Assembly: GCA_947500525.1 (NCBI GenBank)
Contig: CANMSH010000001.1
Span: 620,001-684,000 of the forward strand
Origin: an uncultured Flavobacteriaceae bacterium
Lineage (GTDB): Bacteria > Bacteroidota > Bacteroidia > Flavobacteriales > Flavobacteriaceae
Reading direction: 5' to 3'
DNA: 64,000 bases
The translations under genes and the position numbers were made by a program. Below the pieces are notes generated by a model. The model was not told the DNA's origin, searched no databases, and saw only the letters and a program-made list of their open reading frames with translations. Positions 41,253 through 44,680 of this stretch are shown here, one piece after another; the stretch's first letter is position 1; the number at the start of each line of letters is the position of its first letter.

Positions 41253-41551
41253 ATATTTACTTTAATTAATACTTAATTTTTGTTGTGTACTTATATATAC
41301 GCAAGAAGTTATGATAATGTTACAAAAACATTATTTTTTTATTTTTTGATCACACTTTTTGCTTAAAATTTTTGATCATTTATTGAAAAATTCAATTCGT
41401 TGTTCTTTAATAAAACAACTAATAGAAGAAAATTCCCCTGTTAGTAAGTTGTTGAAGAATTTTAAATAGGCTTATGTTTTCATTTTAATTAATACCATAC
41501 CTTAAGATTTACAAGCTAAACGAAGACGAAAAATATTTATAGCACTAAAAT

Positions 41552-41635
41552 GTGACTTTTTAAAAAAGTATGTGTCAAAAGAGTAAACATACTATATAGA
41601 ATAAGTGAAACATAAAGTAAACTTATTAGAGTCAC
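41552..41635 (+). other. Three-way-junction-like inverted-repeat structure upstream of ECF sigma gene
   Basis: GTGACT 41552-41557 / AGTCAC 41630-41635 encloses AGTATGT 41567-41573 / ACATACT 41587-41593 and AATAAGT 41600-41606 / ACTTATT 41621-41627. Confidence 0.45.
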
Positions 41636-41700: not shown

Positions 41701-42270
41701 TTGAAACCTTCTGTCAATATTAGCCAACTCAGCGATGAGGATCTGGTTAGTAAAATAGTAAATACTAAAGATAGCACACTGTTTGCGCAGTTGTACGATC
41801 GTTATGCGCCATTGGTGTATAACAAATGTTTAGGTTTTGCTAAGAACAAAGTAGAGGCAGAAGATTTAACACACGACATATTTATTAAGTTATATGTCAA
41901 GTTAAATTCCTTTAAAGGAAATTCAAAATTTTCAACATGGTTGTATTCATTCACCTATAATTTTTGTGTGAATTATGTGCAAAGAGATGCGTATAAAAAT
42001 AAGGAGCAAGTGAATGAAGTAGAAGTAGAGAAAAGATCGGCGGTGGCGGATGAGGTGAGTGATAATGATATTTTAAAATTAAAGGCTGAAAAATTGCAAA
42101 AAGTACTAGCAATTGTAGATCCAAATTATAAAATGATATTGTTAATGAAATACCAAGACGATCTTTCTATAAAGGAAATTTCGGAAGCGCTTAATATAGG
42201 AGAGAGTGCAGTAAAGATGAGAGTGAAAAGAGCGAAAGAAAAAGTAATGGAAATGTATACAAAACTCTAA
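41701..42270 (+). CDS. ECF-type sigma-70 family RNA polymerase sigma factor
   Basis: DRYAPLVYNKCLGFAKNKVEAEDLTHDIFIKLYVKLNSFKGNSKFSTWLYSF; DLSIKEISEALNIGESAVKMRVKRAKEK; TTG start. Confidence 0.93.
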   Translation: MKPSVNISQLSDEDLVSKIVNTKDSTLFAQLYDRYAPLVYNKCLGFAKNKVEAEDLTHDIFIKLYVKLNSFKGNSKFSTWLYSFTYNFCVNYVQRDAYKNKEQVNEVEVEKRSAVADEVSDNDILKLKAEKLQKVLAIVDPNYKMILLMKYQDDLSIKEISEALNIGESAVKMRVKRAKEKVMEMYTKL

Positions 42271-42273
42271 TAT

Positions 42274-42450
42274 ATGGGAAACCCTTTTAAAGAAATATTG
42301 CACCAAGAGGCGCTTCCTGAAAAGTTGAAAGGAAAAGTAATGAGTGATATCTCATTCATTAAACTAGCAATAGATTTTGCGGATCTAATGGTGGTAAAGT
42401 ATCCTGAAACTATAGATGACCTTTTGAGAATTAAAGAAGATAAAAAATAA
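42274..42450 (+). CDS. Small conserved-looking protein downstream of ECF sigma (58 aa), not in ORF track
   Basis: Hand translation MGNPFKEILHQEALPEKLKGKVMSDISFIKLAIDFADLMVVKYPETIDDLLRIKEDKK*; 3 bp after the sigma stop. Confidence 0.7.
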   Translation: MGNPFKEILHQEALPEKLKGKVMSDISFIKLAIDFADLMVVKYPETIDDLLRIKEDKK

Positions 42451-42486: not shown

Positions 42487-43302
42487 ATGGCAACGCAAAT
42501 TGAAGGAGTAAACCTCTCTTTTTTACAAGATATGTGGCAAAGCATTATAGGTTTTATGCCAAAACTTATTTCAGTATTAGTATTATTAATTGTTGGATTG
42601 ATAATATTAAAGATTGTTTCTCTAGTTCTTAAGAAAACATTGAAAGTGGCAAATGTTGATAAGCTAGGAGAAAAAATAAAAGAGATTCAGTTGTTTCGAA
42701 ATACTGATTTCAAGGTCTCAGATATTATTATTAAAGTCGTTAGATGGATTTTAATATTGTTTATTATTATTTCGGCAGCCGGAATTTTAGGACTTGATAT
42801 GGTAACCAACGGGATTACCGCAATTATATCTTATTTACCGAAATTGTTCACGGCGATAGCTATTTTTATAGTAGGTGTATTCTTAGCGAACATTGTGAAA
42901 AATGCTATTTTATCTTCATTTAAAGCCTTAGATATTGGAGGATCTCAAATTATTGGGAACATCGTATTTTTTGCGATTACAATTGTTATTGGAATTACGG
43001 CCTTAAATCAAGCAATGATTGATACAGATATGATTACCAATAATTTAACAATCATATTTGGTTCGTTTTTGCTGGCTTTTACAATTGCTTTCGGATTGGG
43101 TTCGAGGGATATTGTACAGCGATTGTTATTCGGATTTTACTCTCGAAAGAATTTAAATATTGGACAAAAAGTGAAGATAGGAGATGTACAAGGAACTATA
43201 AAGTCTATAGATAATATATACTTGGTATTAACAAATGAAGATGGGAAATTTATTTTCCCAATAAAGGAAGTAAATGATAAAATAGTTCAAGTGATAGATT
43301 AA
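42487..43302 (+). CDS. MscS-like small-conductance mechanosensitive channel family protein
   Basis: TM helices, AFGLGSRDIVQRLLFGFYSRKNLNIGQKVKIGDVQGTIKSIDNIYLVL. Confidence 0.8.
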   Translation: MATQIEGVNLSFLQDMWQSIIGFMPKLISVLVLLIVGLIILKIVSLVLKKTLKVANVDKLGEKIKEIQLFRNTDFKVSDIIIKVVRWILILFIIISAAGILGLDMVTNGITAIISYLPKLFTAIAIFIVGVFLANIVKNAILSSFKALDIGGSQIIGNIVFFAITIVIGITALNQAMIDTDMITNNLTIIFGSFLLAFTIAFGLGSRDIVQRLLFGFYSRKNLNIGQKVKIGDVQGTIKSIDNIYLVLTNEDGKFIFPIKEVNDKIVQVID

Positions 43303-43319
43303 AAAAGATAAAATTATAA

Positions 43320-43391
43320 ATACTCTTGCCGTTTTACGTTGGGGAATGTAAGTGCAAACTAACTTTATTATTTGTCATAACACAAGAGTAT
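43320..43391 (+). other. Inverted-repeat unit with inner GGGG-loop hairpin (unit A, divergent geometry)
   Basis: ATACTCTTG 43320-43328 / CAAGAGTAT 43383-43391; inner TTTACGTT-GGGG-AATGTAAG 43333-43352. Confidence 0.45.
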
Positions 43392-43421
43392 ATTTTACAG
43401 AGGTTTGACAGAGCCTCTCAT

Positions 43422-43525
43422 ATTGATAAATCAGTCAGGTTTTCTATAAATAAAGGGGTTTATTATATAGATTGCATTTATCAATAAAAAGCTTCCTATC
43501 CTGAGAGATTGGGAGGGAAGCTTTT
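43422..43525 (+). ncRNA. Candidate structured RNA (unit B) plus terminator-like hairpin
   Basis: Outer stem ATTGATAAAT 43422-43431 / ATTTATCAAT 43476-43485; inner TCTATA.AATAAA-GGGG-TTTATT.TATAGA; hairpin AAAAGCTTCC 43487-43496 / GGAAGCTTTT 43516-43525. Confidence 0.55.
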
Positions 43526-43585
43526 AAAAATATTTGAAAAAGGGAATGAGAAAATTCTATGAAAAAGAAATTTTAACTCCAAACC

Positions 43586-43680
43586 TGATAAATCAACCAA
43601 AATCTATTGAAGTAAAGGGGTTTATTATATAGATTCGATTTATCACAATAGGGCCTCTCCATAAGGAGAGGCTTTTATTT
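43586..43680 (+). ncRNA. Candidate structured RNA (unit C) plus Rho-independent terminator
   Basis: Outer stem TGATAAATC 43586-43594 / GATTTATCA 43637-43645; inner AATCTAT/ATAGATT and TAAA-GGGG-TTTA; terminator GCCTCTCC 43653-43660 / GGAGAGGC 43664-43671 then TTTTATTTTTTATT. Confidence 0.55.
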
Positions 43681-43681
43681 T

Positions 43682-44680
43682 TTATTCAAAACCTAATGCT
43701 TGATCGATGGTTATGCGTTCACGCAATTGATTGATTTTTTTATGCATCTTATTAAAAAATAAAGTTCTATCCTTTTCACCCGAATGTACCAATAATTTAG
43801 AATTTGTCATTTGCCTATTAAAAAAGTCATCCATAATATCACAGGTTTCCTTATGTTCAATTTTTAAGTATTCTAAAACTGTATAGGGAACAAAAAAAGC
43901 TTTTCTATGTGTGGTTTTTACCATGATAATATTACTCATAGTGAGTAAGTCACTTTTATACAAATTATAAGAAGCATTATTTTTTGAATTGATAATACTT
44001 TGTTGAATAGTTTGCTGTTCTACATGATGTACAATCTCTTCTAAATCATCGCATATTTTTAAAGCAAGATTTTTCGATAACAATTGAGAATCATAAAAAT
44101 AAATAATCTGTTCAAGTGTTCCGTTAATTGTATTGTCATTCCAAAATTCGGTGATATTTATGAAATTGTAGGTATGGCCTAACTCAAAAGCTTTTTCCAA
44201 TAATGAATTGGGTATAGTTTCTATGAAGTTATCAAAGGAAACCTTATTTTTTGTCATTTCTTTGTTGGTGAGCTTCAGCCAAACATAAATTTTATAACGA
44301 GTTATAAATGAATCTTTGAGCGTGTAGAATAATGGGATATCTTTCGCTGAGTATAAAATAGAAGCACTACTGAGTTTAGTTAGTGGAATTAAATTTTCAA
44401 CCGATCTAGAGAAATAAGATTCTAAATGTGTCATATCCAATATTCGTGGTGATTTTTCGGCAATTATAGTATCTGGACTCCCTACTTCGTATAATTTATT
44501 GAGGGATATTTTATAATGCTTTGCGAGTATCACACCTTCTTCTAAAGTTAAATTGGTCTTTAAACTTATTCGTCTATAGGCCGCATCATAACCAATGTCT
44601 AGAACAGAGGCAACTTCGTCGATAAATGAATTGTTACCAGCATTTTTCTCCTTTAAAAACTTGATAAATTGACTTTGCAT
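43682..44680 (-). CDS. XRE-like HTH transcriptional regulator
   Basis: N-terminal FIKFLKEKNAGNNSFIDEVASVLDIGYDAAYRRISLKTNLTLEEGVILAKHYKISLNKL. Confidence 0.75.
   Translation of the reverse strand: MQSQFIKFLKEKNAGNNSFIDEVASVLDIGYDAAYRRISLKTNLTLEEGVILAKHYKISLNKLYEVGSPDTIIAEKSPRILDMTHLESYFSRSVENLIPLTKLSSASILYSAKDIPLFYTLKDSFITRYKIYVWLKLTNKEMTKNKVSFDNFIETIPNSLLEKAFELGHTYNFINITEFWNDNTINGTLEQIIYFYDSQLLSKNLALKICDDLEEIVHHVEQQTIQQSIINSKNNASYNLYKSDLLTMSNIIMVKTTHRKAFFVPYTVLEYLKIEHKETCDIMDDFFNRQMTNSKLLVHSGEKDRTLFFNKMHKKINQLRERITIDQALGFE

Follow-up and report, generated by a model that had tools for sequence, protein, structure and literature searches.

A covarying structured RNA in the 3′ flank of a flavobacterial ECF-sigma/mscS operon and its predicted pairing with a dnaJ-linked small RNA

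What are the two repeated, folding units that follow a MscS-like channel gene in a genome of the Flavobacteriaceae, and do they act as RNAs of their own or as the tail of a longer transcript? The window analysed here is the whole stretch of 64,000 nucleotides from this uncultured bacterium (genome G000), and positions refer to it. A first-pass annotation, made from the letters alone, had described the units, B and C, as paired small RNAs (sRNAs). We tentatively favor another explanation, to which we give a chance slightly short of even, namely that B and C form a structured RNA encoded in the 3′ UTR of a stress operon, which pairs with an sRNA linked to dnaJ and most likely serves as its sponge; B probably does not constitute an sRNA gene of its own. 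Mechanisms of sRNA action are, to our knowledge, little known in this phylum.

Both units were found on the plus strand as a direct repeat of 60 nt (43424-43483 and 43586-43645, 80% identical). Their tandem spacing was thereby confirmed, with a distance of 162 bp from start to start in place of the 164 bp first given. The shared core that had been noticed is an identical 23-nt stretch, TAAAGGGGTTTATTATATAGATT, of which the genome holds exactly two copies (43451-43473 and 43613-43635) and no further one within 3 mismatches. Unit B, including a P1 hairpin and a terminator, spans 43399-43525, and unit C with its terminator spans 43586-43676. P1 (43399-43418) has 8 bp and a GACA loop. It is followed by P2 (43421-43486), which consists of an outer stem, a single-base bulge, a CAGUC/GAUUG stem (43432-43436 with 43470-43474) and an apical AAAGGGGUUU loop. 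The outer stems are perfect, as annotated, with 11 bp in B (43421-43431 with 43476-43486; 10 bp had been counted) and 9 bp in C (43586-43594 with 43637-43645). Inner stems re-forming with different 5′ partners had also been proposed, and this description held for C, in which AATCTAT/ATAGATT (43601-43607 with 43629-43635) encloses the GGGG loop at 43617-43620 within 43586-43645; in B, the proposed TCTATA/TATAGA stem competes with CAGUC/GAUUG, and only the latter is kept in the relatives G306 and G307. The terminator-like hairpins behind the units are intrinsic terminators with U-tracts, one at 43487-43525 (AAAAGCTTCC/GGAAGCTTTT, a 10-bp perfect inverted repeat) and one, by sequence and fold, at 43653-43676 (GCCTCTCC/GGAGAGGC followed by TTTT). 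Compared with dinucleotide shuffles, the folds including terminators had z-scores of -5.9 (B) and -5.0 (C); without terminators, the values were -4.3 and -2.2, so the fold of C alone is just moderately above chance. Neither a tRNA nor an open reading frame (ORF) of at least 60 aa accounts for the units, in line with the earlier statement that no ORF explains them. Besides the two units first described, the region contains P1, a B-C spacer complementary to an sRNA, and an element A (43319-43392, plus strand), in which a long-range stem, AATACTCTTG/CAAGAGTAT, closes a loop with GGGGAA.

Unit B was recovered in five relatives that were traced via the mscS and neighboring helix-turn-helix (HTH) proteins: G315 (CANLUS010000001), G314 (CANKZQ010000005), G306 (DRQI01000392) and G307 (JAGQYU010000182), which were grouped in the window's genus, and G114 of another genus. 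Unit C is confined to three genomes, the window's, G315 and G314, which are closely related and not independent; in each of them, B and C agree fully in the 23-nt core and diverge in the flanks. In the single-unit relatives, a terminator hairpin and then a U-tract follow on the mscS strand. Element A is present in G306 and G314, keeps its stem with changed sequence in G307 (AACACUAUUG/CAAGAGUGUU) and is absent in G315; P1 of G114 has the same form in other letters (ACACAAGUAUU-GAAA-GAUACUUGUGU). Among nine homologous units, 91.8% of cells in paired positions were paired, versus 33-48% in slid controls, and changes on both sides of a pair were seen in 7 cells and 5 pairs; such changes affected 4 of the 8 pairs of P1. 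None of 500 shuffles reached the covariation score of this nine-unit alignment, which was fitted to a covariance model, whereas an unfitted alignment of five sequences showed weak covariation (57/500 shuffles reached its score). The covariation supports the fold of B, and the first-pass suggestion of selection on an RNA fold, to be checked with a covariance model over homologues, is supported. The model, R1, finds unit C at E=4.9e-5. Over 400 genomes of the family, with few candidates scored per genome, its real matches were those in the window's own genome and in G114; weak matches in G313, G115 and G179 appear to be false, with an unrelated context in G313 and coding frames in G115 and G179. 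Run without filters, R1 detected no B at the mscS loci of G407, G003, G059 and G120.

A membership in a known class, possibly the Flavo-1 motif, had been considered in the first-pass annotation. Rfam 15 at gathering score matched only a distant tmRNA in the whole window, and permissive thresholds and searches in the relatives gave no credible match; the units thus have no hit to any family, and hence none to a well-studied class. Flavo-1 (RF01705; PMC2864571) is likewise a candidate structured RNA of Flavobacteria, but its model matches nothing over 43290-43700 even at E<=10. 6S-Flavo (RF01685), also a hairpin RNA of these bacteria, occurs once per genome and away from the mscS locus; an identification of element A as 6S RNA was rejected, since the genome has its own 6S RNA at G000 C5:76882-77008 and nothing here matches. 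Rfp18 of Flavobacterium psychrophilum (PMC9723704) resembles B and C as a regulatory RNA of the Flavobacteriaceae that folds into three stem-loops, and differs in being an independent transcript conserved in another genus, a distinction made by description and not by sequence. B and C represent a structured RNA family that Rfam lacks, one that shows covariation and keeps to a fixed operon context.

This context is given by mscS, which adjoins unit B wherever B was found, in six genomes including the window's. In the window, mscS (42487-43302, plus strand) encodes 271 aa with the Pfam domain MS_channel_1st_1 (E=1.6e-18), and the RNA elements lie directly downstream. It is preceded by a gene for an ECF sigma factor of 189 aa (41701-42270, plus strand; Pfam Sigma70_r2 and Sigma70_r4_2), which adjoins mscS in the relatives as well. 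A small ORF of ~57 aa (42276-42450, plus strand) between the two is an apparent part of the operon. Upstream of ecf lies a candidate ECF promoter, TGTGAC-N15-GTGTC (41551-41576, plus strand), the sole match to TGTGAC-N(13-20)-GTGTC on both strands of the 64-kb window, and such an element precedes 15 of 35 related ecf genes. Given the MscS partner and what is generally known about ECF factors, this one presumably responds to envelope or osmotic stress. In other genera, a second TGTGAC-N-GTGTC element lies downstream of mscS (L127, L129, L131, L133, L135, L140, L144 and L147), so that in these genera the regulon of the ECF factor may extend to the following gene. On the other side of the units, a convergent gene (43682-44680, minus strand) encodes a DNA-binding-like HTH regulator of 332 aa, for which no Pfam or NCBIfam family and no solved structure was matched; it is probably a neighbor outside the system. 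A functional link of the RNA to this gene was rejected because most HTH orthologues are located elsewhere and lack the RNA; those without an mscS neighbor are also without unit B.

Whether B and C have promoters of their own bears directly on the reading first proposed, in which they are two independent trans-acting sRNA genes that regulate mRNAs through exposed G-rich apical loops. Several features fit it: the GGGG loops are predicted to be unpaired (0.92 in B and 0.75 in C), B and C share an unchanged core in each of three genomes, both units carry terminators of their own, and just before P1, at 43389, the window has a box, TATATTTT, with 7 of the 8 letters of TAnnTTTG. A full TAnnTTTG box was found before neither B nor C on the plus strand of the intergenic region, and the relatives have no conserved promoter box before B. 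In G315, B starts 16 nt past the mscS stop codon, which leaves no intergenic room for a promoter of its own. Together, the missing box and the 16-nt gap make a 3′-UTR origin likelier than separate sRNA genes and render the paired genes doubtful. Action of the GGGG loops on C-rich targets is unsupported too, as sites complementary to the loop with at most one mismatch numbered 33 in the genome, fewer than the 51 of a reversed control. Only two non-self sites in the genome match the perfect complement, TAAACCCCTTTA; one exact complement, which would fit the reading of separate sRNA genes, falls within a lipoprotein-like gene at codons 4-7 (L158; G000 C1:726176-726187), with the genome count of sites at chance level. 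We regard two independent sRNA genes as rather unlikely.

A 3′-UTR origin has known parallels in the type II 3′-UTR-derived sRNAs, such as CpxQ from cpxP (reviewed in PMC8383071). As with CpxQ, the RNA forms the 3′ part of an mRNA from a membrane-stress operon and ends at an intrinsic terminator, and, judged by the TAnnTTTG consensus, it may likewise lack a promoter of its own; in six genomes it lies within an mRNA 3′ flank, on the same strand, with a terminator at its end. It differs from CpxQ in its P1/P2 structure, its tandem copy and its unrelated sequence, and the processed 3′ fragment is putative here. Transcription from the ECF promoter would pass ecf and mscS and then A and B, and the terminator of B would be the first strong intrinsic terminator of the operon transcript. 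P1, P2 and this terminator would form a stable 3′ fragment that could persist as a 3′-UTR-derived RNA. Since C lies behind the terminator of B, the operon transcript may stop short of it, and C would be reached by readthrough or from an unrecognized promoter.

A possible partner of this RNA emerged from the B-C spacer. When the intergenic region was compared by BLASTN with 301 genomes of the family, the matches were short and at chance level, except for repeats of the spacer within its own genome, which led to a 21-nt motif, GGGAAAATTGCTATGAAAAAG. Within two mismatches, this motif was detected in 132 of the 301 Flavobacteriaceae genomes, and a reversed control was nearly absent. The strand opposite the motif holds a gene of ~75 nt composed of a TAnnTTTG box, a 5′ hairpin of varying sequence, the core CUUUUUCAUAGCAAUUUUCCC and a terminator. 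We extracted 50 distinct copies by requiring the box and the exact 18-nt core, so that the invariance of the core among them is by construction; the 5′ hairpin, which was absent from the criteria, was found in 50/50. At 32 of 38 sRNA loci, dnaJ lay within the fetched stretch, with the core on the same strand, 67-299 nt (distances as listed) beyond the point where the dnaJ match stops. The gene is often tandem: the window's own genome has copies at L033:1935-2011 (G000 C2:386934-387010) and at ~L033:2100-2190, and others are in L192-L249. The core was present within one mismatch in 18/18 relatives searched, as an sRNA or as a complementary site. Rfam matched no family to the copies in L033, and a search through the main texts of the open literature did not turn up the core; this family-wide dnaJ-linked sRNA is apparently undescribed. 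The core resembles a sequence complementary to GCUAUGAAAAAG, which could plausibly be a gene start. Gene starts as its targets were rejected, as the start regions of 52 window ORFs did no better than ORF interiors (-6.4 vs -6.7 kcal/mol).

The spacer site complementary to the core (43543-43566, plus strand) has a predicted duplex energy of -19.7 kcal/mol, the lowest among 380-nt tiles of the window, with one tie in a tile that may include the site; about half of the site is unpaired in the isolated fold (0.48). When 35 mscS 3′ flanks were compared, the eight lowest energies on the sense strand (-15.9 to -26.4 kcal/mol) belonged to G315, G407, G003, G307, the window, G120, G314 and G306, from two genera, and the remaining 27 were, with one exception, at shuffled background. 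The site is in the B-C spacer in the window, G315 and G314 (degenerate in G314), in the loop of an A-like element in G306, G307, G407 and G003, and between a hairpin and terminator in G120. In G114, unit B is not accompanied by the site, and in G120, G407 and G003 the site is present where B is missing; fold and site are therefore separable and may have different functions. The G114 fold, together with the position directly after mscS and the terminator character, is consistent with a purely cis-acting 3′-UTR element, in which P1, P2 and the terminators make the ecf-mscS mRNA more stable, terminate it or bind a protein, and the site lets the sRNA control this mRNA, with no function in trans. 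The long conserved core, the P1 loop and a tandem copy behind a terminator are more than a plain terminator needs, and we consider such an element unlikely. It is more improbable still that the spacer is an inserted remnant of a dnaJ-linked sRNA gene on the minus strand, functionless on the plus strand. BLAST similarity to the rnpB-proximal sRNA copy does reach slightly into the terminator arm, but the minus strand has neither the sRNA 5′ hairpin nor a TAnnTTTG box at the right distance, and in G306, G307, G120, G407 and G003 the site stands in differing sequence contexts of the same 3′ flank.

In the favored reading, that of a 3′-UTR-encoded RNA pairing with the dnaJ-linked sRNA, the open stretch, located in the B-C spacer in the window and in element A in other genomes, would pair with the sRNA core, and induction of the operon would most likely titrate the sRNA; in the reverse direction, the sRNA could act on the mscS mRNA via its 3′ UTR. 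A sponge role is most plausible by analogy with SroC/GcvB and chbBC/ChiX (PMC8383071) and with CrfA/SisA-D (PMC12559287), in which part of a transcript is complementary to the core of an sRNA. Here, complementarity to the core of an sRNA of the same genome is conserved in eight genomes of two genera, G114 not among them. CrfA faces a family of sibling sRNAs, as the RNA here would face tandem sRNA copies; in contrast to these known sponges, sequestration at the mscS locus is a prediction from sequence. B/C and the dnaJ-linked sRNA together may constitute an undescribed system of RNA-on-RNA control, and the predicted pairing, if true, would be one of few base-pairing mechanisms known in the phylum.

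A second tandem RNA was found 13 kb beyond the window on the minus strand (L154:1530-2140; G000 C1:697.0-697.6 kb). It has two structured units of ~200 nt with GGGGG/CCCCC ends and perfect 21-nt complements of the sRNA core (-32 kcal/mol), is kept in the relatives G315 and G301, and had no match in Rfam. Conceivably, though we would sooner expect otherwise, the widespread and often tandem dnaJ-linked sRNA is sequestered by dedicated, tandem-duplicated structured RNAs, the ECF-controlled mscS 3′ UTR among them, in a stress-coupled sponge network. With its motif in 132 genomes, the sRNA is a much broader lead than B and C.

Two minor observations concern other loci. RNAs with two or three clustered sRNA-complementary motifs, as multi-site sponges would show, were noticed on the minus strand at L248 (~1501-1552) and L246 (~1501). 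In another genus (L121 and L122), a different structured 3′ flank follows ~330 nt past mscS, with a hairpin bearing a GNRA-like loop and two more hairpins that could form a kissing interaction through their GGGUU and GAACCCC loops.
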